Source of the DNA: Deinococcales bacterium | GTDB lineage: Bacteria > Deinococcota > Deinococci > Deinococcales > JAAFIG01 | Direction of reading: 5' to 3' | Assembly: GCA_013298595.1 (NCBI GenBank) | Contig: JAAFIG010000009.1 | Location: 62,001-126,000 of the forward strand | Length of the DNA: 64,000 nucleotides | Part shown: positions 1 to 64,000 of the stretch, one piece after another | Layout: each line of letters opens with the position of its first letter | Position numbering within the stretch: position 1 is the first letter of the stretch | Program-made: the position numbers and the translations under genes | Notes under the pieces: model-generated | Told to the model about the DNA's origin: nothing | Seen by the model: the letters and a program-made list of their open reading frames with translations, nothing else | The model's database searches: none

Positions 1-165
1 TTTGAAAGACTCTACCGAGCCGATGCCTCGAGAAACCGAGCTACTGGAGGGAGTGGCTTAGGGTTAGCCATTGTCAAAACCATTGCCGAACTACACCAAG
101 GTACAGTCAAAGCCAAAAATCTTAGCCCGCATGGGGCGGCACTTTGTATTACGTTGCCGTTATAA
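1..165 (+). CDS. Sensor histidine kinase, C-terminal end (partial)
   Basis: Only the last 54 codons are in the window; the gene begins upstream. The fragment reads FERLYRAD, then GGSGLGLAIVKTIAELHQG, then a final TLPL. These are the F-box, the G2 box and the closing strand of the HATPase_c domain of sensor histidine kinases, which binds ATP and phosphorylates the conserved histidine of a two-component system. The sensor region and response-regulator partner lie outside, so the signal is unknown. It ends with TAA at 163-165. Confidence 0.9.
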   Translation, partial: FERLYRADASRNRATGGSGLGLAIVKTIAELHQGTVKAKNLSPHGAALCITLPL

Positions 166-221
166 AATATAAAGCTTTGCGCTTAATACGTTTAACAAGT
201 AAAACTCAAGGGTTTTTGCAA

Positions 222-249
222 GTTGGGCGAGGCACGCTTCGCACCCTAC
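222..249. repeat. Dispersed palindromic repeat, copy A
   Basis: The core GGGCGAGGCACGCTTCGC is followed by ACCCTACTGG. It shares core and tail with the copies at 31947 and 59858; the consensus is GGGYGAGGCAYGCYTCRC followed by a CTAC-GGTT tail. It sits 57 bases downstream of the kinase stop codon and could form a small hairpin in RNA. Confidence 0.75.
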
Positions 250-288
250 TGGTTATTGGCATGCCCCACAGTGTTCTGCCTTAGCCCT

Positions 289-317: not shown

Positions 318-323
318 ACTGCC

Positions 324-1790: not shown

Positions 1791-1797
1791 GGTGCCT

Positions 1798-2903: not shown

Positions 2904-2909
2904 ATACCG

Positions 2910-2915: not shown

Positions 2916-3144
2916 CGCCATCAGTATGGCTTAATAATTTACATACTTGCTTACGCATATCAGGATTCCTTCAAACTTGCTTGCTTCACGCTATTAGATT
3001 CGATTTGATATTTTTCATCCTTGAGACAAAAGCCCTACGTATTTGCAAGACAAGCTACGATTCTTAGGGGACATTCGAGCAGCCTAAAAAAGCGATTGTA
3101 TTAAAAGCAACTCGAGACTCGAGTTTGCCTTTCTCGAGGTTCTT

Positions 3145-4050
3145 ATGAAAAAACCATTCTTACTCAGCGCAGCCTTGCTGGCTGGCATTGCACTTGCCGC
3201 CCCTATTCAAATTCGTGATGGTCTTGGGCGCAGTGTCACTGTCAATGCACCCGCAAATCGCATCGTGGCATTATCCTTAACAGCTACCGAAATTCTGGTG
3301 GATATTGGCGCTAACCCGATTGGTCGTCCGAGTAGTGCCACACATCCAGCCACCGCTTTACGTATCCCAGATGTTGGTAGTGCCTACCGCCCTGATACCG
3401 AAAAGATTCTTGGTTTACGTCCAGATTTACTGATTGGTTCGGTTGGTACCACTGCTGCCAGCGCCCGTCAACTTGGTGCACTGCCAATACCGCTCATTGT
3501 GACTCCAGACTCGAGCCTGAAAGATGTTTACGATACATACACACTATTTGGCAAATTAACCAACCGTGAAGCCTACGCTAAAGCCCGTTTAGAATTCCTG
3601 CAATCTCGAGTCAAACGCGTCATTGCCAAAGTACCTAGCAATGTGGTTAAACCAAAAGTGTTGGCTTTGCTGGCGGCGGGTGGGCAATCGTTTAGCACCA
3701 CCGACGAAACCTACATTGGTGATCTGCTCGAGAAAGCAGGTGCTAACAACGTTGCCAAAGGCACACCAAGCGCCGACCCACGCCAACCCGGTTTTGTTGT
3801 GCTCAGTTTAGAGCAAATTGTCGCAGCCAACCCCGATGTGATGATTGGTTTCCGCGCCGTAACTGCCACTGGTGCACCAGCGCCTAGTCCGTTTGAACGC
3901 CTCGAGCAAAGCAGCGCTTGGAAGAACTTAAATGCTGTAAAAAATAATCGGGTACATATTCTCAGTAGCGACCCATTTGTCACAGCTCCAGGACCACGGG
4001 CTGTCGAAACCCTCGAAACATTAATTCCTTTGTTCTACCCAAAGCAGTAA
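3145..4050 (+). CDS. ABC transporter substrate-binding protein, BtuF/FecB type
   Basis: The 301-residue protein starts with a signal peptide, cleaved near ALA-APIQ at residues 18-22. It then has the helical-backbone binding-protein fold of cluster A-II: GLGRSVTVNAPANRIVAL, LSLTATEILVDIGA, LRPDLLIG and a late NPDVMIGF. Such proteins capture vitamin B12, haem or ferric siderophores in the periplasm and deliver them to a BtuC/FecC permease. It is followed by such a permease and ATPase, so this is a full importer. The substrate cannot be decided from sequence and no B12 riboswitch is evident upstream. The ribosome site GAGG at 3136-3139 is part of a CTCGAG palindrome. Confidence 0.88.
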   Translation: MKKPFLLSAALLAGIALAAPIQIRDGLGRSVTVNAPANRIVALSLTATEILVDIGANPIGRPSSATHPATALRIPDVGSAYRPDTEKILGLRPDLLIGSVGTTAASARQLGALPIPLIVTPDSSLKDVYDTYTLFGKLTNREAYAKARLEFLQSRVKRVIAKVPSNVVKPKVLALLAAGGQSFSTTDETYIGDLLEKAGANNVAKGTPSADPRQPGFVVLSLEQIVAANPDVMIGFRAVTATGAPAPSPFERLEQSSAWKNLNAVKNNRVHILSSDPFVTAPGPRAVETLETLIPLFYPKQ

Positions 4051-4074
4051 ACGCTAACTAAAAGGTTAAAGTAA

Positions 4075-4096
4075 GGGCGATTCAATTGAATCGCCC
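4075..4096 (+). promoter_or_regulatory. Perfect intercistronic palindrome in the importer operon
   Basis: The arms GGGCGATTCAA and TTGAATCGCCC form a perfect 22-base palindrome between the binding-protein stop and the permease start. No T-run follows, so it is not a normal terminator. In binding-protein operons such stem-loops often protect the upstream mRNA and give more binding protein than permease; that role is inferred here. Confidence 0.6.
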
Positions 4097-4103
4097 ATCA
4101 ATT

Positions 4104-5117
4104 ATGAAATCAGATGCTAAACAAACCATGCAATTGGCTCGAGATGTCACAAAAAGCTCGAGCTTGCCTTGGTTTTTTGGCTTAATAGCCCTGCTGTTAC
4201 TGGTTTTAGGAATCGCGCTGGCTAATGGCTCTTATCCGATTTCGTTGCAAACATTACTGGCTTGGGTGGTAGGACAAGCCGATGCCACTTCCGCGCAGAT
4301 TCTCTGGGAAGTTCGCGCACCACGAGTTATACTGGCATTATTAGTCGGCTCGAGTTTAGGTTTAACTGGACCATTATTACAAGCGGGGTTTCGTACCAGC
4401 CTAGCCGATTCCTACTTGCTTGGCTTAGCAGGCTTTGCCGCTCTAGGCGCGGTTTTGCTACAACAAATTGGTATGGCAGGCTTTGGCACGCCAGTCCTTG
4501 CCAGTATGGGCGCAGGCTTTGCGGTTTGGTTACTGACACAACTTTCTAACGAACGCTCGAGTGAACGCCGCGCCTTAATTGGGGTTGCTTTAGCTGCTAT
4601 GAGTTTATCTGGGCTGTCATTATTACTGGCACTGTCACAAAGCCCTACCAGTTCCAATGTCCTTGGTTGGGTGGTTGGAGGCTTCTATGGAGCGGGTACC
4701 AATCAACTTTGGCAAATGCTGCCATTTGCTGCTATCGGCACAGCCATTGCCCTGATGCTAGGACGCATTGCCAACCTTTTACAACTTGGTGATGATGTCG
4801 CCGAGAACCTAGGCTTAAATGCTCGAGCCTCAAGAAACTTAGTATTGATGCTGGCTGCTTTATTAACAGGAGTGGCTGTTGGTACCAGTGGTTTAATGGG
4901 TTTTGTTGGCTTACTTTCGGTCAGTGTAGCTCGAGGAATTTTTGGCACAGATTATAAGAAATTACTGCCCGCCAGTGCGCTGATTGGTGGCATTGCAGTT
5001 AGTTTATCCGATGTGATTGGACGCACACTGATCGCACCGAACGAAATTCCCGCAGGAGCATTCACCACCGTCCTAGGCGGAATTTACTTAATGATCCTCT
5101 CGAGACGAGCCTCATGA
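4104..5117 (+). CDS. ABC transporter permease, FecCD/BtuC family
   Basis: This 337-residue polytopic membrane protein has about nine or ten hydrophobic segments. Family motifs are VRAPRVILALLVGSSLGLTG near residue 65, the Gly-rich GFAALGAVLL region, TGVAVGTSGLMGFVGLL and a final EIPAGAFTTVLGGIYLMI. It forms the homodimeric channel of a B12/siderophore-type importer. An in-frame TTG lies at 4086 inside the palindrome, but ATG 4104 gives the usual N-terminus. No ribosome site is obvious. The last bases overlap the ATPase start as ATGA, indicating coupled translation. Confidence 0.88.
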   Translation: MKSDAKQTMQLARDVTKSSSLPWFFGLIALLLLVLGIALANGSYPISLQTLLAWVVGQADATSAQILWEVRAPRVILALLVGSSLGLTGPLLQAGFRTSLADSYLLGLAGFAALGAVLLQQIGMAGFGTPVLASMGAGFAVWLLTQLSNERSSERRALIGVALAAMSLSGLSLLLALSQSPTSSNVLGWVVGGFYGAGTNQLWQMLPFAAIGTAIALMLGRIANLLQLGDDVAENLGLNARASRNLVLMLAALLTGVAVGTSGLMGFVGLLSVSVARGIFGTDYKKLLPASALIGGIAVSLSDVIGRTLIAPNEIPAGAFTTVLGGIYLMILSRRAS

Positions 5118-5863
5118 CCTCTCCTCTACTTGCCCAAAATATCACTGTCAGACGCGGAACTCGAGCCATTATGCGCGAAGTCAATCTCGAGTTCAAAGCT
5201 GGCGAAGTGACCGCGATTATCGGGGCGAACGGTGCAGGTAAAAGTACCTTATTGGCTGCCTTGGCAGGTTTGCGTTCTTTGCAACACAATGAAGGTTCTG
5301 TTTTACTCGAGGGTAAGGATATGCAAACCTTATCAAAAGCTGTGATTGCCACAAAACTTGCTTTCTTGCCAGCCCACTCGAGTGTACCTTTTCCATTGAC
5401 GGTTCGAGAACTGATTGCCTTGGCTGAACCATCACAAACTGCTTATCTTGAGGCATTAGCGGCTATGGAACTCGAGCCACTCGAAGAAAAAGCCATTACG
5501 CAATTATCTACTGGTGAAGCCAAACGCGCTTGGCTTGCCATGACCCTCTCGAGAAATACGCCAATACTTTTATTGGATGAACCACTGGCTGGTTTAGACC
5601 CACGTTACCAAATGCGTTTACTCGAGACATTACAAACTCGAGCCAGTAATGGCGCATGTATTGTTTTTATTGCCCATGACATCCCTTATGCGGCTCGAGC
5701 TAACCGCGTGATTGCCCTTGGCGAAAATAAGGTCATGGCAGATGGAACACCTCTCGAGGTATTGAACTCGAGTTTGTTGCGTGAATTGTACGGTGTGGAA
5801 GTGTGGCTTGGCACTGAGCCAAGTACAGGCGCACTTGTGCCATTACCAACTCGAGCAGTCTAG
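5114..5863 (+). CDS. ABC transporter ATPase, BtuD/FecE type
   Basis: The 249-residue nucleotide-binding subunit has Walker A GANGAGKST at about residue 36, signature LSTGEAKRAWLAM (LSTGE in place of the usual LSGGQ), Walker B ILLLDEPLAGLD and the switch histidine in VFIAHDI. It powers import through the permease encoded just upstream, with which it overlaps by 4 bases. It completes a three-gene operon of binding protein, permease and ATPase. The next gene, trpB, has its own promoter. Confidence 0.9.
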   Translation: MTSPLLAQNITVRRGTRAIMREVNLEFKAGEVTAIIGANGAGKSTLLAALAGLRSLQHNEGSVLLEGKDMQTLSKAVIATKLAFLPAHSSVPFPLTVRELIALAEPSQTAYLEALAAMELEPLEEKAITQLSTGEAKRAWLAMTLSRNTPILLLDEPLAGLDPRYQMRLLETLQTRASNGACIVFIAHDIPYAARANRVIALGENKVMADGTPLEVLNSSLLRELYGVEVWLGTEPSTGALVPLPTRAV

Positions 5864-5909
5864 TCTAGCGGTCTAGGCTTTTACCTCGAGCTTTAGGGCA
5901 GCGGCGGCG

Positions 5910-5915
5910 TACTGT
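5910..5915 (+). promoter_or_regulatory. -10 box of trpB
   Basis: TACTGT is followed by 6 bases and the trpB ATG at 5922, giving a leaderless mRNA. No trp leader peptide or attenuator fits into such a short region. The -35 region is weak. Confidence 0.55.
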
Positions 5916-5921
5916 TAGACC

Positions 5922-7142
5922 ATGCAAAATTTTCCATTGCCAGATGCTCGAGGGCGATTTGGTCGTTTCGGTGGTCGGTACGTTCCAGAAACACTGATTC
6001 CTGCGCTCGAGGAGTTAAGTGCAGCCTACCAAGATGCCAAAAACGATCCTGCTTTCATGGCAGAATTTGAACAAACACTGCGCGAATTTGTGGGTCGTCC
6101 GAGTTTATTGTACTACGCTAAAAATTTAACAGAACGCTTAGGTGGCGCAAAAATTTATTTAAAACGCGAAGACCTAAACCACACTGGTGCCCATAAAATC
6201 AACAACACCATTGGGCAAGTTATGCTGGCAAAACGCATGGGCAAAAAACGTATCATTGCTGAAACAGGTGCAGGTCAACATGGCGTTGCCACAGCTACAG
6301 CATGTGCTTTATTCGGACTCGAGTGTATTGTCTACCAAGGGGAAGAAGATGTGCGTCGTCAGGCATTGAATGTATTTCGTATGAAATTACTGGGTGCAGA
6401 AGTTCGACCTGTCTCGAGTGGAACCCGCACCCTCAAAGATGCGACCAACGAAGCGATCAGAGATTGGGTGACCAATGTTCGCAGTACATTTTACGTGCTT
6501 GGTAGCGTGGTTGGTCCACATCCATACCCTGCGATGGTACGCGATTTCCAAAGTGTGATTGGTGAAGAAACCAAAACGCAATTACTAGAACTCGAGGGGC
6601 GCATCAACCCAGATGCCATTGTTGCTTGCGTTGGTGGTGGCAGCAACGCCATTGGTATTTTTGCACCATACGCTTACCTCGAGAATCGTCCGCGTTTAAT
6701 TGGTGTTGAAGCTGCTGGGCATGGCGTTGAGTCTGGGCTTCATGCTGCCAGTGTAGCAGGGGGCAAAGTTGGTGTCTTACATGGCAGTTTGATGTATTTG
6801 CTGTACGACGAAAATGGTCAGATCGTGCCTGCCCACAGTGTTTCAGCAGGACTCGATTACCCAGGAATTGGACCAGAGCACAGTTATTACGCCGCCAATG
6901 GCGTTGCCGAATACGTACCCATTACTGACCGAGAAGCCCTCGATGGTTTCAAACTTTTATCCGAATGTGAAGGAATTATTCCTGCCCTCGAGACAGCCCA
7001 TGCCATCGCTTATTTGAAAACACTGGCTCCTGAACTGGGTAAAGATAAAATTATTGTGGTTAACTTATCAGGCAGAGGCGACAAGGATGTTCAAGAAGCC
7101 ATGCGAGTCATGACCGACATGGAAAACGCTGCCAAAGCCTAA
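5922..7142 (+). CDS. trpB: Tryptophan synthase beta subunit
   Basis: The 406-residue enzyme condenses indole and L-serine to tryptophan using PLP. The PLP lysine is K92 in [13 protein letters not shown]. The phosphate-binding GGGSNAIG loop, the [15 protein letters not shown] segment and the closing NLSGRGDKD are all intact. Length and motifs match the standard TrpB1 type, which works with the alpha subunit. trpA follows, but 343 bases away instead of being directly coupled. Start: ATG 6 bases after TACTGT. Confidence 0.97.
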
Positions 7143-7485
7143 AAATCGTAGGGGCGAGGCATGCCTCGCTCAATAAAACCAAAACCGATGGGCATACTCA
7201 CCCAACCGCCCAAAATTAGGGCAACCACAAGGGTCGCCCCTACAAAAACAAAAAAACCACCGTAGCAGCGAGGCATGCCTCGCCTAATTCGCAAAAGACT
7301 AAAGCATTATGCCAATCAAGGCGAATTTTGTATTCACCTCTACGAAAATCCAACTGTAGTAAAACATGCCTCGCAAGAATCTAAAGCATTGTGTTATTCA
7401 GAGGAAATACAAGATTTACTCTTTACGAAAATCAAAATTATGGTCAGGTCATCTCTTTTAAATCCTTTTACTTTTGGAGCTTTTT
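7143..7485. repeat. Repeat-rich insert between trpB and trpA
   Basis: This 343-base gap carries no credible gene and no CTCGAG. It holds GGGGCGAGGCATGCCTCGC (7150-7168); an inverted pair GTAGGGGCGA (7148-7157) and TCGCCCCTAC (7234-7243); a second palindrome at 7268-7283; and an imperfect internal duplication, in which CATGCCTCGC, CTAAAGCATT and TACGAAAATC recur in the same order around 7273-7355 and 7366-7435. The sequence GTAGGGGCGACCCTTGTGG, read on the minus strand, belongs to a palindromic intergenic motif that I recall from many bacterial phyla. The insert separates two genes normally coupled. Confidence 0.75.
7148..7243. repeat. Element bounded by inverted GTAGGGGCGA / TCGCCCCTAC
   Basis: Ten-base perfect inverted repeats flank about 76 bases, and the left end also contains the GAGGCATGCCTC palindrome. 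It begins 5 bases after the trpB stop codon. This could be a small non-autonomous mobile element or a REP-like structure. Confidence 0.6.
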
Positions 7486-8606: not shown

Positions 8607-8612
8607 CGATTC

Positions 8613-8642: not shown

Positions 8643-8649
8643 TTATTCC

Positions 8650-13563: not shown

Positions 13564-14889
13564 TTAAACTTTAGCCTTTACACCCCAAGTCATTTGCACC
13601 GCATCACGCACCATGGTTACACTCGAGCCAGCTTGCACCCCCGGCGGAGCAATAATACGCCCAATACCAATGCGGGTTGCTTCGGCAGCCCGACGATTCG
13701 GTTGCGAAACACTGCGAACCTCACCAGCTAAACCAACCTCACCAAAAACCGCGATGCCTTCAGGAACTGGTTTCATCATCACAGCACTATACACAGCTAA
13801 AGCAATTGCGAGGTCTAAGCCCGGATCGAGTACCTTTAAACCACCTGCCAAATTGACATAAATATCTAAACCGCCAAGCGATAACTCTAAACGCCGCTCA
13901 AGCACCGCCAGTACCACATCCACCCGCCGAGCATCTAACCCAACTGCCACACGTTTAGGCGCTGGATACGGGGTTTTAGCTGCCAAGGCTTGCACCTCGA
14001 GTAAAAGTGGGCGCTGCCCATCCATCGTGGCAGCAATCACACTGCCCGGCGCTCCAATCGGGCGTTCCGCTAAAAACGCACTCGAGGGATTATCCACCGC
14101 CACCAAGCCTTGTTCTTGCATATCGAAGACACCAAGTTCACCAACGTTACCAAAACGATTCTTGGTCGAACGCAACATCCGATAATTGCCAACCGACTCG
14201 AGCATTAAAACAGCATCCACAATGTGTTCCATAACCTTAGGACCTGCCACCGAACCATCCTTGGTCACATGCCCAACCAGCACCATACTGCAACCTGTTT
14301 CTTTGGCAGCTCGAGTTAAACGCGCAGCTGCTTCACGTACTTGAGCTAAACCACCCGGCGAGCCAGTTTCACCAGCTTGAATGGTTTGAATCGAATCAAC
14401 AATACACAATTTCGGACGTTCAGCCTCGAGCAAAGCCGAAATACCATCAGCGGTAATATCTCGAGTCATCAGAATATCGCCTGATACCGACAACCGATCT
14501 GCCCGCAAACGCACTTGCTCGAGCGATTCCTCGCCAGCCACGTACAAAACCGATTCGCCCGACTGTGCTAAATGATCGGCAACTTGCAGCAGCAACGTGC
14601 TTTTACCTATGCCTGGTTCGCCACCCAACAGCACCACACCACCTGCTACCCAACCACCACCAAGTACCCGATCTAGCTCGGTAATCCCACTCGAGACACG
14701 CGGTTCGGTCTGACTAGCCACACTCGATAAACGCACCAAAGCTGCACTTGGCAAATAACTGCGTTTAGCCGCAACATTACTGATTTCTTCAAAACTATTC
14801 CAAGCACTACATGTCGGGCAACGCCCAAGACTTTTGGCTGCGGTATACCCACAAGAACTGCATTTGAATTGTGTGGTCACTCGAGCCAT
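13564..14889 (-). CDS. radA: DNA repair protein RadA
   Basis: The 441-residue RecA-like ATPase helps branch migration of recombination intermediates. It has the N-terminal zinc finger C10-x2-C13 ... C24-x2-C27, Walker [10 protein letters not shown] at 90-98, the RadA-specific KNRFG motif at 243-247 and a Lon-protease-like C-terminal domain ([14 protein letters not shown] onward). All key motifs are intact. The start ATG at 14889 lies 7 bases after TACACT, so the mRNA should be leaderless. A large inverted repeat made of two TTTCTCGAGAAA palindromes lies 49-87 bases upstream and may control it. Confidence 0.97.
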
Positions 14890-15388: not shown

Positions 15389-16009
15389 ATGCAAATCCCA
15401 ACACTCGAGCAAGCCGAAGCCTTCATGCTAGAAGCCGAAAAACGCAATCCAACCCCTTGGGCAAATCATGCTCGATTTGTTGCCAAAGCTGCTCGAGCCA
15501 TAGCCAATGTTCATCCTAGGCTTGACCCTGACACCGCTTATATTTTGGGTTTAGCGCACGATATTGGCAGACAAGAAGGCTGGTCGGACATCAAACATAT
15601 TCTTGATGGGTACAAGTTTTTCATGGCTCGAGGGTTTGATGATGCAGCCAGAATTTGTTTAACGCATTCGTTTGCAAACGGTTATCCCGATGCCTACTCT
15701 GGAACTTGGGATATCCAACCCGAAGAAAAACTATTCATTCGCCAGTTCATCCAAACTGTGCCATTTGATGATTATGACCGCTTGATTCAACTCTGCGATG
15801 GTTTGGCATTACCCAGTGGTTTTTGTTTACTCGAGGTTCGAGTTGTTGATGTGATGCTACGGCATGGTGCAGGAGAACATATCACTGCCCAAATCAAAGC
15901 TACCTTAAAAATCAAACAAGATTTTGAAAAAGAAATTGGTGTTTCAATTTATTCTTTGCTCGAGGGCGTTGTTGAGAATACATTCACTTTTCAACATGTT
16001 TTAGATTAA
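15389..16009 (+). CDS. HD-domain hydrolase
   Basis: The protein of about 206 residues has the metal-binding HD signature: H in PWANHARFVAKAARAIA, the HD pair in ILGLAHDIGR, and a later H in CLTHSF. This matches small HD-superfamily phosphohydrolases, whose substrates (often nucleotides or phosphate esters) vary widely; none can be assigned here. The 3' end overlaps the convergent PIG-L gene by 4 bases. An earlier ATG at 15374 adds five residues. Confidence 0.8.
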   Translation: MQIPTLEQAEAFMLEAEKRNPTPWANHARFVAKAARAIANVHPRLDPDTAYILGLAHDIGRQEGWSDIKHILDGYKFFMARGFDDAARICLTHSFANGYPDAYSGTWDIQPEEKLFIRQFIQTVPFDDYDRLIQLCDGLALPSGFCLLEVRVVDVMLRHGAGEHITAQIKATLKIKQDFEKEIGVSIYSLLEGVVENTFTFQHVLD

Positions 16010-17094
16010 TCAATCTCGAGTCCTAGCCCATCAAAAAAGCCTTTGAGTGGGTAGTTTTGAATTACACCTCGAGTACCACCAAGTGCAAATGTTTCAGTTT
16101 TGATTCGCTCGAGCATAGCGGCTTTTTGCTCTGGTGGGAGTTGCCCCATTCTCGAGTTTTTTCCTGTTTGGCTGCCGTGGGCTGCCAATGCTGCCAGTTT
16201 TTGTTCGGTGTAGGCACTGCCGTCAAATTGCACGGCGATGGTGTCGGTACTAACGCCAAAGACTTCTGGGGTCATGCCTGGGGTCATTGCACCACCTGGT
16301 TGGGCAATCCATGCCCGCATCGTCTCGAGTGGAAAAGCGGTATAAAAAAGTCGTTTTGGTGCATCTGGTAGGTATCCACTCGAGAAGAAAGCCGCACTGG
16401 CTGCCCGATAAACACTTAAGTGATCTGGGTGGTTGTAGCCGCCGTGAGGGTCGAAGGTGAGGATCACTTGGGGTTTGGTTTCTTTGATGGTGGCAATAAT
16501 TTTTGCTTCCATCTCGAGGTAATCGATGTTGATGGTAGCCAATGGATCGTCGGTGCGTAATCGCTCGAGCCGACCTGAATCGTGGTAATCCATGAAACGT
16601 GGTTCGGATATACCCATGGCTTGGCAAGCCAGTTTCAACTCGAGTTCGCGGTGTTTGCCAAGGTCGGTGATACTTAAATTTGGGTCGGTAATTTTCCCAG
16701 CTTCACCACGTGTGGCACAAAGTAATTCAACCCTGACTCCAAGGCTGGCATAATGCGTTAAAATCCCACCACTCGAAAAAGCTTCATCGTCTGGATGGGC
16801 AAACACGGCAAGCAAACTGGGTTTCATGGTCTCGAGAATACTGCTTGGAAGGTTCATTTCATCGAAATGTGCGATACCAAATTGATCGAGGATGGTGTCG
16901 GCTTTCTCGAGCGCAAATGTTCCCTCAACCTCGCGTTGGACTTTTATCAGCGCTAAACCGTATAAACGATACGAAATTGCCCATTGCAACGAATCTCGAG
17001 GGAATGCTTCGGCGCTGCGTCTAAAATGTGAAATGGCGGTCAGGTCGTCGGTGTTTTGCCAAGCCTCGAGTCCAAGTTGACGTTCGCTAGGCAT
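16006..17094 (-). CDS. PIG-L/LmbE family deacetylase
   Basis: The 362-residue protein has a helical N-terminal region of about 90 residues that looks TPR-like (ISHFRRSAEAFPRDSLQWA), then the PIG-L domain: zinc site FAHPDDEAF with H100 and D103, and the second site HGGYNHPDHLSV near residue 217. PIG-L enzymes remove acetyl groups from N-acetylglucosamine conjugates, for example in mycothiol or bacillithiol synthesis. The GH20 enzyme on the other side of the promoter supports an amino-sugar theme. The start follows TATACT by 7 bases. Confidence 0.85.
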   Translation of the reverse strand: MPSERQLGLEAWQNTDDLTAISHFRRSAEAFPRDSLQWAISYRLYGLALIKVQREVEGTFALEKADTILDQFGIAHFDEMNLPSSILETMKPSLLAVFAHPDDEAFSSGGILTHYASLGVRVELLCATRGEAGKITDPNLSITDLGKHRELELKLACQAMGISEPRFMDYHDSGRLERLRTDDPLATINIDYLEMEAKIIATIKETKPQVILTFDPHGGYNHPDHLSVYRAASAAFFSSGYLPDAPKRLFYTAFPLETMRAWIAQPGGAMTPGMTPEVFGVSTDTIAVQFDGSAYTEQKLAALAAHGSQTGKNSRMGQLPPEQKAAMLERIKTETFALGGTRGVIQNYPLKGFFDGLGLEID

Positions 17095-17101
17095 GTTTTT
17101 C

Positions 17102-17111
17102 AGTATAAACT
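17102..17111. promoter_or_regulatory. Overlapping divergent -10 boxes (PIG-L / GH20)
   Basis: TATACT on the minus strand (17102-17107) serves the PIG-L gene starting at 17094. TAAACT on the plus strand (17106-17111) is 9 bases before the GH20 ATG at 17121. The two boxes overlap by two bases, so the polymerase can probably bind in only one direction at a time. Confidence 0.55.
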
Positions 17112-17120
17112 AATGGCATC

Positions 17121-18596: not shown

Positions 18597-18597
18597 A

Positions 18598-18633
18598 TTT
18601 GTCACCCGAATCTTGTAAAACTCGGGTGACAAA
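18598..18633. terminator. 12-bp hairpin between convergent genes
   Basis: TTTGTCACCCGA and TCGGGTGACAAA form a perfect 12-base-pair stem around a 12-base loop, directly after the GH20 stop. It sits between convergent genes and is likely to act on both strands, though a long T-run is missing. Confidence 0.65.
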
Positions 18634-18657
18634 TGAGCTATTAACACTCATAGCTCA
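18634..18657. terminator. Second hairpin at the same convergent junction
   Basis: TGAGCTAT and ATAGCTCA form an 8-base-pair stem with an 8-base loop, immediately beside the first hairpin and 6 bases from the end of the beta-helix gene. Confidence 0.5.
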
Positions 18658-18662
18658 ACCAG

Positions 18663-26765: not shown

Positions 26766-26767
26766 AT

Positions 26768-26784
26768 TAGTATGTAATATACTA
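26768..26784. promoter_or_regulatory. Candidate operator of the M20 operon
   Basis: TAGTAT and ATACTA form a perfect 6-base inverted repeat with a 5-base spacer, 2 bases from the M20 start codon and covering a TATATT -10-like box. The shape resembles GntR-family operators. No such regulator is encoded nearby. Confidence 0.4.
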
Positions 26785-26826
26785 CTTTGAAAGACAAAAT
26801 TCTATAGAGGTATTTTGCATAGGACT

Positions 26827-56515: not shown

Positions 56516-57292
56516 TTATAGCAACTCGAGACGATAAAAAGTTTGTTCACCTGTGTCATGTAAATCTGTAACAACATAACCACACTGAAAATAATGAGCA
56601 AACACCACCCGATGCGCTTCCCGCCACGTCCGAGCCGCCTCGAGATTCTGTGCTTTTAGCACATTGATATCTCGAGGGCTTTGAATTAACAAAACCCCTT
56701 CTGCTTGTAAATTTGGCATGGTTGCACAAGCTTTGGAGTCTGCCTCGAGCACCAAAGTTCCCGAAGGTGCAGTTTTTGCTTTCTCGAGCATTATTTTGGT
56801 TAAATCCCATTCAACAAAAAACCGATCTGCGGGCAAACCAGCGTAAATTCCACCACGCAACGCATACCAATCTGGGTGATACGAAACCGCTCTGGCATTT
56901 AATTTACCCAAATTCAAACGCGCATTTTTGGTTAAAAGCGGATCAAACGTCCAAGTCATTAAGCTGTACCCCATCGCCACAGCTCGAGATCGTTGATGCA
57001 ATTTTAAGCGAGTGGCTAAACCACTGGCTTGATGCTCTGGGCGAATTGCCAGCATATGCGAATGCTGCACCAAAACACCTTTGTACATGGCAGGGAAACT
57101 ATACGCAAAACCCACAGGCACACTCGAGCCAACCACAAACGCCGCACAAACCACTCCACCCATATGGGCATGAACCGTGAACAAACTAGCAGGGGTTAAA
57201 TCCCGATCTGGATACCCCCACGCACTTTGTTGAACATCCTCGAGTCCTTCCATGTCAAAAGCATTCTCGAGGTCTTTAATGATGTACTCCAT
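56516..57292 (-). CDS. GNAT-superfamily acetyltransferase (COG3375-like)
   Basis: The 258-residue protein has the pattern of predicted GNAT enzymes of COG3375: GVVCAAFVVGSSVPVGFAYSFPA, HSHMLAIRPEHQASGLATRLK and MTWTFDPLLTKNARLNLGKL. The acetyl-CoA loop is RPEHQASGLATRLK. The C-terminal part carries further strands with no known motif. The substrate is unknown. ATG 57292 lies 6 bases after TACACT. It is upstream of the giant operon on the same strand. Confidence 0.85.
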   Translation of the reverse strand: MEYIIKDLENAFDMEGLEDVQQSAWGYPDRDLTPASLFTVHAHMGGVVCAAFVVGSSVPVGFAYSFPAMYKGVLVQHSHMLAIRPEHQASGLATRLKLHQRSRAVAMGYSLMTWTFDPLLTKNARLNLGKLNARAVSYHPDWYALRGGIYAGLPADRFFVEWDLTKIMLEKAKTAPSGTLVLEADSKACATMPNLQAEGVLLIQSPRDINVLKAQNLEAARTWREAHRVVFAHYFQCGYVVTDLHDTGEQTFYRLELL

Positions 57293-57298
57293 ATGCTT

Positions 57299-57304
57299 AG
57301 TGTA
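57299..57304 (-). promoter_or_regulatory. -10 box of the COG3375 gene
   Basis: TACACT on the minus strand, 6 bases before ATG 57292, within the short gap after the MFS gene. Confidence 0.55.
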
Positions 57305-57311
57305 TCAGTGT

Positions 57312-58472
57312 CTATCCATCCGAGGTTGGTGCAGGTTGCAACAACGCAATCAATGCACCTAAAAACAACACAACTGCCGACCATGCCAAACCAATTTGTA
57401 AACCACCCGCAGTATCGCTCAGCCAGCCAGAAATCAGTGGACCGACACTTTGCCCAGCCGCAAAAACAATGGTGAATAAGGTAATCCCAGCACTCCATGC
57501 ACTCGAGGGTAAGTACCGCCGAGCTAACGCCGTAGTAGCGCTAACCACCGATAGAAACGAACCAAAACACAGCGCCGATAACAACATCACCATAAACTGG
57601 CTCGAGAAAAGTGGTAAAACTGCACCAACTGCCACCACTGCTAATGCCGCCGCTAAACCTCGAGCACCATGCCAAACAACTATTGGTGTGCTCCAAACTC
57701 GAGCCACAAACATGGTGCTGAGACCAAGCATAGCCCAGAACAAAGCAATCTCGAGGGTTGTTGCCCCACGGCTTTTCATAAATGCCACCGAGAATGTCAT
57801 ATACGCAATGTATCCAAGGGCAAAGCAGGCATATGCTAGTAACGAAAATTTGAGCTGCCATGCCGACCACTTGTGGCTACTCAAGGTTGTGGTTTTGAAA
57901 TCAGGTAAATGCCACGCAGCCAAACTCGAGAAAATCGCAAAAATCAGCGCAACAAAACCAAGAGCAACCCATAAAACACGCCAATTAAATTGCAACTCGA
58001 GCGCAAATGGTAAAGAAATTCCTGAGAGTAAAATCCCAAAACCAGCCCCTGCATAATACGTGCTCAGCATGGTAGCAGCTTGTTTTGGGTAACTCGAGGC
58101 AGCATGGGCGATCAGTACACCGCCTGCGATAAATACCACCGCACCACTGATCCCAGCGAGGCAACGCAACACCAATAACCACAGATAATTATCGGAGAAG
58201 CCACTGCCAATTAATGCCAAACTAGTCAGTACTAAACCACCCATAAAAGCCTGACGTGTACCAAGTGCTGGCATGAAAATACTTGCCAATAATGCACCGA
58301 ATAAATACCCTAGCGCATTCGCTGTGTTCATACCACCCGCTAAAGCATATGTCCAACTCAATTCTGCTTGCATCGGCGGTAATAACAACGCATAGGCAAA
58401 CCGTGCCAAACCAAGTGCCACCGTTGCACCTAATGCCAAACCAATGGCTGTTTGTATGGCTCGAGAGAGCAC
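57312..58472 (-). CDS. MFS transporter, YbfB/YjiJ-type
   Basis: About 386 residues with twelve hydrophobic segments. The N-terminal ALGLARFAYALLLPPMQAEL matches the YbfB/YjiJ group (G-x-x-R-F-x-Y-x-x-x-L-P-x-M), probably an exporter of a small molecule. A longer frame reaches 58559, but GTG 58472 has GGAGG 7 bases upstream and starts right after the flavin-reductase stop, so 58472 is chosen. It belongs to the operon of the flavin reductase, divergent from an ArsR-type regulator. Confidence 0.87.
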   Translation of the reverse strand: MLSRAIQTAIGLALGATVALGLARFAYALLLPPMQAELSWTYALAGGMNTANALGYLFGALLASIFMPALGTRQAFMGGLVLTSLALIGSGFSDNYLWLLVLRCLAGISGAVVFIAGGVLIAHAASSYPKQAATMLSTYYAGAGFGILLSGISLPFALELQFNWRVLWVALGFVALIFAIFSSLAAWHLPDFKTTTLSSHKWSAWQLKFSLLAYACFALGYIAYMTFSVAFMKSRGATTLEIALFWAMLGLSTMFVARVWSTPIVVWHGARGLAAALAVVAVGAVLPLFSSQFMVMLLSALCFGSFLSVVSATTALARRYLPSSAWSAGITLFTIVFAAGQSVGPLISGWLSDTAGGLQIGLAWSAVVLFLGALIALLQPAPTSDG

Positions 58473-58474
58473 GG

Positions 58475-59092
58475 TTATACCTCCGCTCGGAAATTCGAGC
58501 CAAGTTTTTGGGCATGTCCAAAATAATGCCGAAACACGTACAGCAATGGCGACCAACAACTGGTGTCAATATGGTTTGTGTTTGACAAAACCATATTTTC
58601 ATGAGCATGCACTTTTAACACCTGCATTTCCACAATACGGCACTCATCGGCAAGTCCAGCCGCATCTGTTGTACAGGCATGAATAGCCAAAACTTTTGCC
58701 TCGAGTTGCAACGGACACTCGAGAATCCGACTTGGTTGCACCAGCTCACTTGGGCTTTGAGACCAACTTGCCATTGCAAATTTATTCGCCACAAACTGGT
58801 ACCCCATTGTCACTTTAGACGATGGTACTGGGTTGCGCCCCGTTGTGGCAGCAATGCTTTCCACAGCCGCGTGCATATCGCTCGAGGGCAAGTTAATCAC
58901 CGCTTCGCCGCACCGTTCAAGATTATAAAAACCCTGTCCATGAGCACTTAAACCCAGAATCACCCGATCCGCTAAAGCCCAAGCACTACTCATCACTGAA
59001 ATATTACTCGAGCCATCAGGGTTCAAGGTTGTTATCAGGGCAACAGGAGTACCAAAATACAAAATACTGGGCTTTATCGAAATTGTTTTCAC
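58475..59092 (-). CDS. Flavin reductase family protein
   Basis: The 205-residue protein has the FMN-binding flavin-reductase-like fold: FGTPVALITTLNPDGSSNISVMSS, RVILGLSAHGQGFYNLERCGEAVINLPS and LECPLQLEAKVL. It probably binds FMN and reduces flavin or a small oxidant. The GTG start at 59092 is 6 bases after TAGATT. The adjoining MFS gene follows in the same operon, and ArsR lies divergent, so a small regulated detoxification or transport unit is likely. Confidence 0.87.
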   Translation of the reverse strand: MKTISIKPSILYFGTPVALITTLNPDGSSNISVMSSAWALADRVILGLSAHGQGFYNLERCGEAVINLPSSDMHAAVESIAATTGRNPVPSSKVTMGYQFVANKFAMASWSQSPSELVQPSRILECPLQLEAKVLAIHACTTDAAGLADECRIVEMQVLKVHAHENMVLSNTNHIDTSCWSPLLYVFRHYFGHAQKLGSNFRAEV

Positions 59093-59098
59093 CAGTGC

Positions 59099-59104
59099 AA
59101 TCTA
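59099..59104 (-). promoter_or_regulatory. -10 box of the flavin reductase operon
   Basis: TAGATT on the minus strand, 6 bases before the GTG at 59092. Confidence 0.5.
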
Positions 59105-59123
59105 AAGTACAGCAACAAAAAAC

Positions 59124-59143
59124 GTTTCAAGTTTGATCGAAAC
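59124..59143. promoter_or_regulatory. Candidate ArsR operator
   Basis: GTTTC and GAAAC face each other with a 10-base gap that itself contains TCAA-GT-TTGA. The site lies between the two divergent promoters, as expected for self-regulation by the ArsR-like protein. Weak by sequence alone. Confidence 0.3.
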
Positions 59144-59163
59144 AAAATAACTGCGTAAACCCG

Positions 59164-59169
59164 TACACT
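59164..59169 (+). promoter_or_regulatory. -10 box of the arsR-like gene
   Basis: TACACT, 6 bases before ATG 59176; its last two bases begin a CTCGAG palindrome. Confidence 0.6.
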
Positions 59170-59175
59170 CGAGCC

Positions 59176-59853
59176 ATGAAAGTGACCCAACAAGAAATTG
59201 CCCAACACGAACCGGACCTTTCGAGCGCTGCTGCACTGATTGGCGAACCAACTCGAGCTACCATACTGACAGCCCTGATGACAGGCTTGGCATTACCTGC
59301 AGGTGAACTGGCTGAACTGGCAGGAGTCAGCCCACAAACTGCCAGTATGCACCTGCAAAAACTGCTCGAGAACAATATGGTCAGTGTTGAAACACAAGGC
59401 AGACACCGCTACTACCGACTCGAAAACAGCGATGTTGCCGTTGCCCTCGAAGCCCTGATGGTGATTGCACCAACCCAACCCAAAAAACGGCAATTACCTA
59501 ACCAAGACATGTGTTACGCCCGCACTTGTTACGACCACCTCGCGGGCTGGCTCGGTGTACTCCTTTGCCAAACCATGCTCGAGAACAACTGGATAACCCA
59601 ACAACACCTCGAGTTCACTCCCACCGAACTCGGCAAAAATAAACTTGCATCACTGGGCATTCAACCCAGTCAAGCTCGAGCTTGCTTAGATTGGACAGAA
59701 CGAAGACACCACATCGGTGGCGAACTCGGACGCAACATCACCACCTACTTACTCGAGCAAAAATGGGTTGTGCGCCACACCTCGAGCCGAGCCTTGCGGG
59801 TAACCGAAAAAGGCATACTGGGATTACGAGACGTGTTTGGTATGCGATTGTAA
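59176..59853 (+). CDS. ArsR family transcriptional regulator
   Basis: The 225-residue protein has an N-terminal winged helix: AALIGEPTRATILTALMTG, then AGELAELAGVSPQTASMHLQ as recognition helix and GRHRYYRLEN as wing. The C-terminal half has the ARTCYDHLAGWLGV motif common to one ArsR branch, with cysteines in CYARTCY that may bind metal or react with electrophiles. It lies divergent from the flavin reductase and MFS genes, which it probably represses. Confidence 0.9.
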   Translation: MKVTQQEIAQHEPDLSSAAALIGEPTRATILTALMTGLALPAGELAELAGVSPQTASMHLQKLLENNMVSVETQGRHRYYRLENSDVAVALEALMVIAPTQPKKRQLPNQDMCYARTCYDHLAGWLGVLLCQTMLENNWITQQHLEFTPTELGKNKLASLGIQPSQARACLDWTERRHHIGGELGRNITTYLLEQKWVVRHTSSRALRVTEKGILGLRDVFGMRL

Positions 59854-59890
59854 AGCAGGGTGAGGCACGCCTCACCGCTACGGGTTAATT
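59854..59890. repeat. Dispersed palindromic repeat, copy D
   Basis: GGGTGAGGCACGCCTCACCG followed by CTACGGGTTAATT. The arms GTGAGGC and GCCTCAC are separated by 2 bases. It begins right after the arsR-like stop codon and could serve as a terminator-like hairpin. Confidence 0.75.
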
Positions 59891-59960
59891 GTTATTTTAT
59901 TGTCTTTCTGCGCTTTCTGGCTTAGGTCGTTATCCGCATGTGTTACGCTTTGGCTTACCG

Positions 59961-59966
59961 TACAAT
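59961..59966 (+). promoter_or_regulatory. -10 box of the ABC-F gene
   Basis: TACAAT, 6 bases before the GTG at 59973. Confidence 0.55.
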
Positions 59967-59972
59967 GCTTGA

Positions 59973-62420
59973 GTGTTGTTACGTGCTTTGGATTTACGTC
60001 TGGCTTTTGCTGATCGAGTGATTCTCGAGGGGGCTTCGTTGTTGCTTGAGGCTGGTCAGCGGGTGGCGTTAACAGGACGTAATGGGAGCGGTAAGACTTC
60101 GTTATTACGTATTTTGATGGGTGTGCAGGTTGCTGATGCTGGTTCGCTCGAGGTACTTGGGCGTTTGGGTTGGCTGATGCAAGACCCAAGTTTTTTGGGT
60201 TTGACAGTGCGTGATGTAATGCTTGGTGCATTGGCACATTTGCGTGAATTAGAAGCAAAATTACGTTTACTCGAGCAAGAATTTGCAGCAGGTTCGGATG
60301 CGTGGGCGGCAACCCTCGAGGCATTTGAAATGGCGGGCGGTTATACAGCTGAAGCTCGAGCGGCAGCCACCTTAGAAGCCCTTGGTTTGGTGGGGATGCT
60401 GGATCGTGATGCCGATACTTTGTCGGGTGGTGAGCGGACTCGTTTGGCTTTGGCAGTGGTGTTAATTGCACAACCCGAAGTGCTACTGCTGGATGAACCA
60501 ACCAATCATTTGGATATTGCCATGCGTGAATGGTTAGAAAAACGCTTGCTCGAGTACCCTGGGGCGCTTTTGATTGTTTCGCATGATCGCCGTTTATTGG
60601 ATGTGGTTTGTAAAGAAACATTGCATCTCGAGCGTGGGGTTTTAACGTTGTACGCTGGTGGGTACTCTAAATCCAGAGCTGCTCGGCTCGAAGCGCGGCG
60701 AATTCAGGCGAAATCAGCGCGGGTGGGTGGTTTTGAATTGCGACGTTTGCAACGAGCTGCTCAGACAGTCAGTGCTTGGGGGGTGAACAACACAAAATTG
60801 GCGCGTCGGGCTAAAGCACTGGCAACTCGAGCCGAACGCACCAAAGCCAGTTTGGTGGAAATGCCACCGCGTGAACGGGTACTGCGAATGAAACTCGAAA
60901 GTGGTGATGCTCGAGCCAAATTGGTTTTACGGGCAGAACGCATTGCAAAAACGTATGGTCAACGTTTGATTCTCGAGAAAGCCGATTTGCGTTTACGGGT
61001 TGGTGATCGGGTGGCGTTACTGGCAAAAAATGGGGCTGGTAAAACCACGTTACTCAAAATTTTACTAGGTGAAACGCCACCCGATGTGCCTAATCCGCTC
61101 GAGCCTCCCGAAGTGCGCTATGCCGATGGTGTGACAGTGGCGTATTTTGATCAAACGTTTCATGGTTTAGATGCTAAAAAACCTGTGCTCGAGCAATTAG
61201 AAGCCCGAGTTGGTAATCGTAGTGCAGTAGCGTTGCTTGGGCGTTATGGTTTTCCTGCCGAAGCCCAAACCAGAGCACCAAACACACTTTCTGGTGGTGA
61301 ACGTGCTCGGGCTGGGTTAGCACTGATTGCTGCCACTCGAGCTGATGTGCTGATTCTCGATGAACCGACCAATCATTTGGATGTTGAAACGCTTGAAGCT
61401 CTCGAGGAAGCCATTCTTGGCTATCCGGGCAGTGTTTTATTTGTCACCCATGATCGCAGTTTTGCTAAAGCCGTGGCAACTCGAGTGCTGACGATTGAAA
61501 ATGCAAATTTACTCGAGTTCGCTGATGGCTTTGCTGGTTACGAGCGATTTCGTCGCGGTGAGCGCCGCACACTTGACCCTGCTCGTTTGCTTGAGGGTGA
61601 AAACCCGCCACCACCGCCTCGGCAGTACACGCCCGATCAGCAGATGCAGTTACTCGAGGAACGCAATGTTGAACTCGAAGATTTATTTTTGCATCGTGGT
61701 TTGACCGAACGCGAATGGCAACGTTTTCGTATCGAGGCTCGAGCCATTGTGCTGCGTTTAGCTGAGTTATACGCTGATAAATTCTGTGCGCCACTTGAAT
61801 TCGATCATGCCATACATATCCGCAAACTCGAGATTCGAGCCATTTGTGATGAAACCAGTACCACATGGCAATTCTGGATGAGAAACTCGAGTGGTTGCCC
61901 CAGTTTACGTGGAAATCTTGATGGAACAACACTGGTACTTGAATGGTTAGGCGATACCACACACGCTCTGCCGTGGTTCAAAAAAACATTGTTACAAGGC
62001 GCTGTCAGTCTCGCTTTTGAACGAATCGGTTGCCAAGTAATCCAGCTTCCAGAAAATCTCGAGCCATTTGGTCAAAGTATACAGAGCCTCGAGTACGCAC
62101 AAAAAATGGGTTTAACTCGAGCCGTGCAACAACCTAAACGAAAACGTCGTAAAAAACGCAAAACCTCGAGCCAACTTATTTTTGCTACACCACAAAATCA
62201 GAATCCAAAATTGCAGAATCCACCTATGTCCAATACCCCAAATCCCCAAATCATAGCGGCGGGGCTTGCTTCGCCCAACCCTCGAGTCGGACGTTTACAG
62301 GCTTTACAGGCAAAAAAACAAATCGCTGTCCTGACTCAGGATGCGGTAGTCTCCTCTCCCCTACCGCTCCGACGGCGACGTAAACGCCGCAAAGCACCTC
62401 GGCTCGAGAATCCCGTATGA
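59973..62420 (+). CDS. ABC-F family ATPase with long basic C-terminal tail
   Basis: The 815-residue soluble protein has two ABC modules: Walker A GRNGSGKTS, signature LSGGERTRLAL, Walker B LLLDEPTNHLD, then GAGKTT, LSGGERARAG and LILDEPTNHLD. These ABC-F proteins act on ribosomes, as translation factors or antibiotic-resistance factors. The C-terminal 230 residues go beyond the usual family: a middle domain, then KRKRRKKRKTSSQ and RRRRKRRKAPR, a strongly basic tail that could contact rRNA. A copy of the dispersed palindrome lies within the tail coding sequence. GTG 59973 follows TACAAT by 6 bases. No transmembrane part. Confidence 0.92.
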   Translation: MLLRALDLRLAFADRVILEGASLLLEAGQRVALTGRNGSGKTSLLRILMGVQVADAGSLEVLGRLGWLMQDPSFLGLTVRDVMLGALAHLRELEAKLRLLEQEFAAGSDAWAATLEAFEMAGGYTAEARAAATLEALGLVGMLDRDADTLSGGERTRLALAVVLIAQPEVLLLDEPTNHLDIAMREWLEKRLLEYPGALLIVSHDRRLLDVVCKETLHLERGVLTLYAGGYSKSRAARLEARRIQAKSARVGGFELRRLQRAAQTVSAWGVNNTKLARRAKALATRAERTKASLVEMPPRERVLRMKLESGDARAKLVLRAERIAKTYGQRLILEKADLRLRVGDRVALLAKNGAGKTTLLKILLGETPPDVPNPLEPPEVRYADGVTVAYFDQTFHGLDAKKPVLEQLEARVGNRSAVALLGRYGFPAEAQTRAPNTLSGGERARAGLALIAATRADVLILDEPTNHLDVETLEALEEAILGYPGSVLFVTHDRSFAKAVATRVLTIENANLLEFADGFAGYERFRRGERRTLDPARLLEGENPPPPPRQYTPDQQMQLLEERNVELEDLFLHRGLTEREWQRFRIEARAIVLRLAELYADKFCAPLEFDHAIHIRKLEIRAICDETSTTWQFWMRNSSGCPSLRGNLDGTTLVLEWLGDTTHALPWFKKTLLQGAVSLAFERIGCQVIQLPENLEPFGQSIQSLEYAQKMGLTRAVQQPKRKRRKKRKTSSQLIFATPQNQNPKLQNPPMSNTPNPQIIAAGLASPNPRVGRLQALQAKKQIAVLTQDAVVSSPLPLRRRRKRRKAPRLENPV
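62257..62280 (+). repeat. Palindromic repeat inside the ABC-F tail
   Basis: The segment, read on the minus strand, is GTTGGGCGAAGCAAGCCCCGC, close to copies A and C (GTTGGGCGAGGCACGCTTCGC). It codes for about IAAGLASPNP in the tail of the ABC-F protein. A degenerate copy has thus been absorbed into a coding region. Confidence 0.55.
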
Positions 62421-62421
62421 T
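62416..62421 (+). promoter_or_regulatory. -10 box of the DUF2207 gene
   Basis: TATGAT, overlapping the ABC-F stop codon, 6 bases before the GTG at 62428. Confidence 0.55.
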
Positions 62422-62427
62422 GTTTAT

Positions 62428-64000
62428 GTGAAATCAGCTTTGAGGTTCTTGTTTTTGCTTGCGGCATTGTTTTTGAATGTGGCATCAGCGAAGTCATTTT
62501 CGTTTTCGAGTATCGAGCAAGATATCTATTTTCAACCCAATGGTTCGGTGCGGGTGGTTGATACCCGTTCATATGACTTTAATGGGTCGTTTAGTAAAGC
62601 TTTTTTGACGGTTGATACTCGAGGCAGTGTGGTTTTTTCTGGGGTCGAAGCCTTGGATGGGAAAGCTTTTTATGGTTTTTCAGTGGATGACAATACAGTG
62701 CGTTGGTCTTATGATGCTGAGTCTGAAGCACGGACGTTTCGTATTACGTATGTTTTAAATAACGAAGTGGATGTGGCATCAGATGCAGCGAAGTTTGATC
62801 GTCAGGTACTCGAGCCTGTGCATCAGGCAGTTGGGCGGTATGTGGTGCGTTTACATGCACCTGCGGGAAATCCCGATTTGTTTAAGGTTTTTGTTTTTTC
62901 TCGGGATTCACGACTGGGAACTTTGGAGTTTGACACTGCCACTGGGGTGGCAACCATCAATCTCGAGGATGTGGCTGAAGATGAGTGGGTGCGGACATTT
63001 GTGTTGCTTCCTGCAAAACAATTTCTGATTCCAACTTTGACAGGTAAACAGTTGACTGCGTGGCTCGAGGGGTTAAAAGTGGAAACTAAGGCGTTTCGCA
63101 ATGCCTCGAGTGCTGCTTTAGCGCAGGGTGGTTTTGCACCCCCACCCCCACCACCGCCTGCGTGGTTGTTGGCTTTGCCATTACTTGGCGCATTATTTTT
63201 TGGTAGCAATATTTGGAATGCGTATCAAAAATATGGTCGTGAACCAAGTATTCCCGAGGTTGGTAAGTATTATCGTGAACCTGCTCAGCCAATTCCGCCT
63301 GGTGTTGTGCCCTATGTTTTATCGGCAATGAATCCTGGATCTGGTGCACTTGGTATGGCGATCAGTGCTACGCTAATTGATTTTACACGACGAGGTTTTC
63401 TCGAGTTGCAACGTGGCAAAACCAGTGGTTTTCTTGGTTTGGGCGCAAAAGAAGAAGTACAGTTTGCTTTGGTTAAAAACCCTCAAGCTGGTGAATTAAC
63501 CACTTTTGAAGAGGAAATTTGGCGAATTACTAATCGTGCTCGAGGTTTTGATAATGTTGTTACCCAAACTGAATTACAGCATTATTTTACCTCTAATCCG
63601 AGTGCTGTTAATGCACTGGTGACTATTCCCAGAGATTGGTACGAACAAACGCATGGAGCATTAATGGATACTGCTGATAGCGGTAAAACACTGCCTTGGA
63701 CGATTGCGGCTTTTGTGGCGGGTGTAGCAGGTTTTGCTGGCGGTATTTTCTTACTTGCAAACAACGCTGAAGCTATTGGTATTGCTGTCATGGTAGCAGG
63801 TCTGATTACGATTCTGGGCGGTATTCTTGCTGGTATTGCTCTCTCGAGATGGCATGCTGATAAGTTACTTAATGCTAAGCGTTGGTTAGCCTATAAGCAT
63901 TTCTTAACCGATTTTTCGCAAATGGAAACCGCTCCTGCCGAACACTTAAAACTCTGGGATTATCATTTTGTTTTTGCTACAGCACTTGGTGTTTCGCAAA
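62428..64000 (+). CDS. DUF2207 membrane protein (partial, runs off the end)
   Basis: The frame opens at GTG 62428 and stays open to base 64000, giving at least 524 residues. It has a signal peptide (LRFLFLLAALFLNVASA), an extracytoplasmic beta domain (IEQDIYFQPNGSVRVVDTRS), a Pro stretch (FAPPPPPPPA) before a membrane segment WLLALPLLGALFF, then the DUF2207 C-terminal region with two further membrane helices (TIAAFVAGVAGFAGGIFLL, GIAVMVAGLITILGGILAGI). DUF2207 (YciQ-like) proteins are bacterial membrane proteins of unknown function. The end is missing. GTG is preferred because TATGAT is 6 bases upstream. Confidence 0.88.
   Translation, partial: MKSALRFLFLLAALFLNVASAKSFSFSSIEQDIYFQPNGSVRVVDTRSYDFNGSFSKAFLTVDTRGSVVFSGVEALDGKAFYGFSVDDNTVRWSYDAESEARTFRITYVLNNEVDVASDAAKFDRQVLEPVHQAVGRYVVRLHAPAGNPDLFKVFVFSRDSRLGTLEFDTATGVATINLEDVAEDEWVRTFVLLPAKQFLIPTLTGKQLTAWLEGLKVETKAFRNASSAALAQGGFAPPPPPPPAWLLALPLLGALFFGSNIWNAYQKYGREPSIPEVGKYYREPAQPIPPGVVPYVLSAMNPGSGALGMAISATLIDFTRRGFLELQRGKTSGFLGLGAKEEVQFALVKNPQAGELTTFEEEIWRITNRARGFDNVVTQTELQHYFTSNPSAVNALVTIPRDWYEQTHGALMDTADSGKTLPWTIAAFVAGVAGFAGGIFLLANNAEAIGIAVMVAGLITILGGILAGIALSRWHADKLLNAKRWLAYKHFLTDFSQMETAPAEHLKLWDYHFVFATALGVSQ

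Follow-up and report, generated by a model that had tools for sequence, protein, structure and literature searches.

Short words repeated at high density throughout a genome are known from several groups of bacteria. The DNA uptake sequences of Neisseria and Haemophilus are 9–12 bp long, are not palindromic and occur about once per kb, and their one-off variants by transition are enriched. In cyanobacteria, the highly iterated palindrome HIP1 (GCGATCGC) is hugely over-represented in and between genes across the clade, and its role is open. Elhai 2015 (PMC4390886) defined the cyanobacterial HIPs and alternate HIPs (GGCGCC, GGGATCCC, TCGATCGA, RCCGGY and GCSGC) at about 500–2500 per million bases, tied each to a methyltransferase and proposed a biased-repair ratchet for HIP1; CTCGAG is not mentioned there. 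Methylation of CTCGAG has been described in Halorubrum sp. BOL3-1, at 560 sites only (PMC8112702). Here, we describe a lineage of Deinococcota in which CTCGAG is genuinely an iterated palindrome of the HIP type, extreme in its excess and present throughout the lineage. A first-pass annotation of the DNA had drawn the parallel with HIP1 and knew of no described case with CTCGAG. The parallel is a good one, given that the word is a short palindrome found genome-wide, within and between genes and in several related genomes, and the literature searched, with subscription papers mostly outside reach, contained no such case for Deinococcota.

The window, meaning the whole stretch of DNA analysed (64 kb), is C68:62001-126000 of a 4,582,226-bp draft genome (G000). 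CTCGAG occurs in it 414 times compared with 13.6 expected from base composition (30-fold), a mean of 6.5 per kb; the next commonest palindromic hexamer reaches 41 at most, and CGATCG is absent. The features concerned are as follows.

1–64000, no strand: CTCGAG sites (n = 414), starting at 27, 412, 510, 555, 736 and so on to the last at 63843; spacing mean 154 bp, median 122 bp
3061–6060, no strand: dense stretch with 29 CTCGAG
16001–19000, no strand: dense stretch with 27 CTCGAG
324–35320, no strand: ordinary genes left of the giant ORFs, pooled with 56516–62420
35654–56277, minus strand: tandem giant ORFs of 2695 and 4179 aa, the first with DUF11 and related repeats (surface-protein type)

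The counts for the two dense stretches, originally made by eye, proved exact on recount, but the density of 10 per kb given with them for ordinary genes is reached in dense stretches only and lies above the window mean. Ordinary genes of the window (324–35320 and 56516–62420) carry 7.9 CTCGAG per kb and write 147 of 214 Leu-Glu dipeptides as CTCGAG. The giant ORFs carry 4.0 per kb because Leu-Glu is rare there, and 20 of their 25 Leu-Glu (80%) are written CTCGAG. A horizontally acquired NRPS cluster was rejected as the cause of this dip at 36–56 kb, as the first gene encodes a DUF11-repeat protein and Leu-Glu are few. An intergenic interspersed repeat occupies 7143–7330 of the window, with inverted arms around GCGAGGCATGCCTCGC (fold −67.5 kcal/mol); other copies occur in G000 and in the related genome G001, with 13 BLAST matches in 462 kb of G000.

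Enrichment extends far beyond the window. The whole draft genome holds 27,159 CTCGAG (5.9 per kb, about 1 per 170 bases) and 15 copies of the reversed control GAGCTC. With CTCGAG masked in an order-2 Markov model (462 kb of G000: five contigs and the window), the excess is 69-fold, and the per-site odds of CTCGAG are raised roughly 70- to 110-fold in G000. The first-pass annotation had named a genome-wide count close to the Markov expectation, or no enrichment outside the window, as grounds for dropping the idea; the counts show the opposite, a perfect palindrome far above expectation genome-wide. Chance and base composition are ruled out by the 30-fold and 69-fold excess, and a single-window or assembly artefact is ruled out because genomes from several genera, and two named MAG contigs as well, show equal density. 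Figures other than site counts come from sampled stretches of 40–462 kb per genome (for G000 roughly 462 kb, a tenth of its length), with ORFs called mechanically and gene starts uncertain.

The host lineage is an uncultured member of the Deinococcota, class Deinococci, related to Meiothermus and Thermus. A search for 16S rRNA in the draft genome gave no match. One protein-coding gene of the window places it among named MAGs.

13564–14889, minus strand: RadA-like ATPase gene (KaiC, Zn-ribbon and Lon_C domains), 89% and 79% identity to 'Deinococcales bacterium' MAGs

These matches lie on contigs JAAFJQ01 (89%) and JANXTZ01 (79%), both with 6–7 CTCGAG per kb and most likely from the same assemblies as G001 and G003. 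Across family f1 (G000–G003; four genomes, three genera) the density is about 6–6.5 per kb, or 26,600–28,200 sites per genome, and in genus g11 of the sister family f2 (G012/G016) it is 6.2–7.7 per kb, with GAGCTC nearly nil in both. The word is thus common to related genomes, as for a HIP: G000–G003, G012, G016 and the two MAG contigs. Lower densities are seen in G008 (f2, 3.6 per kb), in G004 (f2, 0.3 per kb) and in two genera that we take to be Meiothermus-like (g13, 1.4–3.1 per kb) and Thermus-like (g7, about 0.6–1.1 per kb). Fold enrichment is 29–73 in the rich genomes, 9.9 in G008, 8.6 in G025 and 3.1 in G009; in plasmid samples it is 3.9 for Allomeiothermus silvanus and 2.5 for Thermus thermophilus, with none for Deinococcus radiodurans (0.6) and D. 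deserti (1.0). Density is alike at 45, 48, 51 and 59% G+C, while the fold differs. A piece of viral contig (L220, IMGVR_UViG_3300017987_004407) with 12 CTCGAG in 2.5 kb (4.8 per kb, 42% GC, GAGCTC 0) is possibly from a phage of a CTCGAG-rich host; the scan of viral contigs for CTCGAG clusters otherwise returned mostly GC-rich, chance-like matches.

Coding and non-coding DNA carry the word equally, at 6.04 and 5.99 per kb; its excess is not a codon effect, as in a HIP. All reading frames are used, as had been claimed, with 1361, 603 and 469 sites in frames 0, 1 and 2 (403 kb of ORFs). The related claim that CTC and CGA codons appear mostly within the site holds for CTC, of which 55% overlap a site, but not for CGA (37%); the figures for GAG and TCG are 52% and 34%. 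Along genes the density is flat apart from the first 20 bases, where it dips, and it peaks between convergent genes at 9.2 per kb. The effect on proteins is large: in five rich genomes, 64–73% of Leu-Glu are spelled CTCGAG compared with 2–9% (0.018–0.091) expected from codon usage outside sites, and the Leu-Glu dipeptide itself has an observed/expected (O/E) ratio of 2.2–2.5, compared with 0.9–1.25 for Glu-Leu. In G004, which has no enrichment, Leu-Glu is written CTCGAG in 10% of cases against 15% expected, and the ratios are 1.21 (Leu-Glu) and 1.17 (Glu-Leu). Tripeptides that allow a frame-1 site outnumber their mirror images 1.3- to 1.6-fold. The pressure for CTCGAG overrides codon choice and changes amino-acid sequence.

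Neighbouring sites avoid each other at short range. With distance taken from start to start, pairs of sites closer than 18 bp reach 0.15–0.38 of the 120–317 bp level in G000 and 0.09–0.36 in G003. G001, G002 and G012 follow the same trend, more weakly in G001 (0.4–0.6); in G000 the fall-off in close pairs reaches about 60 bp. No exclusion at 9–18 bp is seen in G008 and G025 pooled, where numbers are small. The window holds one of the few exceptions.

3111–3138, no strand: tight cluster of sites at 3111, 3118 and 3133, at a spacing (<18 bp) otherwise avoided

The 7-bp arrangement CTCGAGNCTCGAG occurs 23 times in the pooled rich genomes, compared with 4–13 times for each spacing from 8 to 14, against the general exclusion below 18 bp. 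Where codons permit two sites, Leu-Glu pairs 6–18 bp apart are both filled in 37 cases compared with 105 expected if independent (Poisson 2e-14), whereas at 21 bp the both-filled ratio is 1.05. Other 6-bp inverted repeats in G000 stand at 1.02–1.20 at 9–17 bp; hairpin avoidance is hence rejected as the cause, inverted repeats of equal length not being depleted there. In G003, other inverted repeats at 9–11 bp are somewhat depleted (0.59). No helical phasing between sites is seen. Such a zone would be expected from steric exclusion by a bound protein but not from a methyl mark by itself or from a mutation bias that acts uniformly; a role in chromosome organisation, raised in the first-pass annotation, fits with it.

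Individual positions turn over. At Leu-Glu dipeptides conserved in orthologue pairs (about 64% DNA identity), CTCGAG is present in the partner in 0.76 of cases if the reference has it and in 0.69 if not; sites therefore turn over while their share stays fixed. The equivalent figures are 47% and 58% in the frame-1 test and 77% and 28% in the frame-2 test, where split serine codon families restrict change. Conservation of site position between orthologues, as suggested at first, thus fails in its simple form, and frame-0 sites fill permitted codon positions regardless of the orthologue. Even methyltransferase genes, which are usually mobile, already have 61% of their Leu-Glu filled with CTCGAG. 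Flanking bases carry little information in G000, and a longer hidden motif was rejected on this weak flank signal, samples elsewhere being small. Among one-off variants in G000, TTCGAG (1.9-fold), CCCGAG (2.6-fold), CTTGAG (1.8-fold) and likewise CTCGAA are enriched and transversions mostly are not; within Leu-Glu, CTCGAA is seen 137 times vs 45 and CTTGAG 96 times vs 21. These transitions look like the decay of abundant CTCGAG sites. A product of very-short-patch repair would have T-containing one-offs depleted, but CTTGAG and TTCGAG are enriched 1.8–1.9-fold; nothing points to a 5-methylcytosine hot spot, as no single C of CTCGAG stands out among the one-offs in G000.

An orphan methyltransferase of XhoI specificity had been proposed to explain the pattern, and the genomes give it no support. 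In G000, searches with five DNA-methyltransferase Pfam families found L001 (C5), L017 (N6/N4), L043 (TaqI-like m6A), L027 (a 1264-aa Eco57I-type ORF) and L300 (a weak D12 match). Within these families no enzyme is common to all rich genomes, with the note that the draft of G000 misses 6% and that a divergent enzyme is possible. L001 has relatives in G001 (74% identity) and G012 (59%) and no orthologue in G002 or G003, and orthologues of L043 are not common to the rich genomes. At L065 2311-4735, a 307-aa ORF with no Pfam match lies directly 5' of L043, and the two are probably a type II restriction pair. The PaeR7I-type m6A methyltransferase has no match in G000, G001 and G003 at E ≤ 1e-10 and strong matches in 8 of 111 genomes; L034 of G025, 64% identical to annotated paeR7IM, is of this type, as is its 50% identical relative, the gene beside a broken XhoI endonuclease gene in G009. 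In the Meiothermus-like genus, density is 2.19–2.44 sites per kb with a PaeR7I-type enzyme and 1.39–3.07 without, and its presence does not predict density. XhoI endonuclease (PF04555) was found in 4 of the 111 genomes of the class, none CTCGAG-rich: G009 and three g10 genomes. The latter have 0.7–1.0 sites per kb compared with 1.7–2.0 in three g10 genomes without it, which is usual restriction avoidance. In G018 (L265), G041 (L266) and G042 (L267) the XhoI-family endonuclease adjoins an N6/N4-type methyltransferase unrelated to the PaeR7I type, and the Thermus-like G007 (L020) has a fused relative (61–65% identical). The XhoI/PaeR7I system is hence rejected as the driver, with no endonuclease in rich genomes, the methyltransferase missing from G000 and density not predicted. 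The remaining hexamer palindromes are avoided in rich genomes (pooled O/E 0.31–0.48, with 13–27 of them below 0.1; 0.955 in G004), and GGCC stands at 0.01–0.02 of expectation in G000, G001 and G003. This avoidance roughly tracks CTCGAG enrichment in the nine genomes sampled, CTCGAG being the single large exception.

A strong, nearly uniform pressure on each site maintains CTCGAG at about 6 per kb. It works alike on coding DNA, intergenic DNA and methyltransferase genes and needs little or nothing beyond the six bases. It guards no particular positions and becomes much weaker where another site already lies within about 20 bp. Codon-pair or amino-acid bias alone, producing Leu-Glu through preferred CTC and GAG codons, has next to no chance of explaining this. 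Frame 0 is the commonest frame and accounts for most of the bias in the Meiothermus-like and f3 genomes, but in the window's lineage this reading is refuted: intergenic density equals coding density, every frame is used and CTCGAG is far in excess of codon usage. The best explanation, which we hold tentatively, is per-site selection for a putative abundant CTCGAG-binding protein with a footprint of about 18–20 bp. Selection would favour occupancy of CTCGAG by this protein, and two sites closer than the footprint could not both be used; a nucleoid-associated or self-recognition protein would be the likeliest class. The search for readers of CTCGAG, covering methyltransferases and XhoI endonuclease, found no candidate. 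The exclusion could also be the work of a repair patch or of some other feature of closely spaced repeats, its reach to about 60 bp in G000 exceeds one footprint, and the unphased sites, the reduced inverted repeats in G003 and the weaker effect in G001 also count against a bound protein. In the fuller form, a hitherto undescribed abundant protein recognises CTCGAG at about 27,000 places in each genome and covers about 20 bp; selection for its binding, with no DNA methylation, would then have rewritten codons and amino acids across the lineage. This form is rather doubtful.

The main rival is a mutational ratchet, in which mark- or mismatch-directed repair favours CTCGAG and fixes sites without benefit. 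It would act equally on all DNA and override protein sequence, drive-like, and has a precedent in the Elhai 2015 model for alternate HIPs. We consider it unlikely, as repair of the very-short-patch type should deplete the one-offs that are enriched here, the exclusion zone is not predicted and no shared methyltransferase was found; a repair bias creating CTCGAG, as the first-pass annotation had it, is possible. Distinctly less credible is that CTCGAG marks DNA as self, either in uptake or for a defence system that tolerates or destroys DNA depending on how much CTCGAG it contains. The strong avoidance of other palindromes suggests heavy restriction pressure and the enriched transitions recall uptake sequences, but those are longer, non-palindromic and sparser, and redundancy on an uptake fragment would span kilobases, not 18 bp. 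It is very unlikely that CTCGAG is methylated by differing, non-orthologous enzymes in each genome, with methylation being what is selected. Each cyanobacterial alternate HIP had a candidate enzyme, not always orthologous; G000 has the C5 enzyme L001 and the TaqI-like L043, TCGA being the central four bases of CTCGAG; and a Meiothermus-like genome has a PaeR7I-type enzyme and no XhoI endonuclease. However, L043 looks like a member of a restriction pair and is not shared, the L001 orthologue is missing from two rich genomes, density does not follow the PaeR7I type, and neighbouring sites can both carry methyl marks, which leaves the exclusion unexplained.

HIP1 is still unexplained, and its leading model is methyltransferase-linked. 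CTCGAG provides an independent example from a different phylum, at several times the density and with no shared methyltransferase found, and two of its traits, the Leu-Glu excess in proteins and the 20-bp exclusion zone, constrain the mechanism. The exclusion zone predicts a binding footprint and is the first concrete handle known to us. As weaker enrichment occurs in culturable Meiothermus-like genomes, the question can be tested at the bench.

Among known systems, the uptake sequences of Neisseria and Haemophilus are likewise short genome-wide words at high density. The XhoI/PaeR7I restriction–modification system has the same recognition sequence, but its endonuclease is absent from rich genomes and its methyltransferase from G000. 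HIP1 is closest, likewise a short perfect palindrome, hugely over-represented in and between genes and clade-wide, although CTCGAG differs in sequence and phylum and is not HIP1 proper. In the alternate HIPs, as here, another palindrome replaces HIP1; the three unrelated to HIP1 are each confined to a single genome with a candidate methyltransferase, whereas CTCGAG extends over whole genera and at least one family. At 5.9 per kb, CTCGAG exceeds the approximately 0.5–2.5 per kb of most HIPs (Elhai 2015, PMC4390886). It differs from HIP1 further in the lack of a shared associated methyltransferase, the doubled Leu-Glu and the exclusion of about 20 bp, the last two of which are known here for CTCGAG alone.
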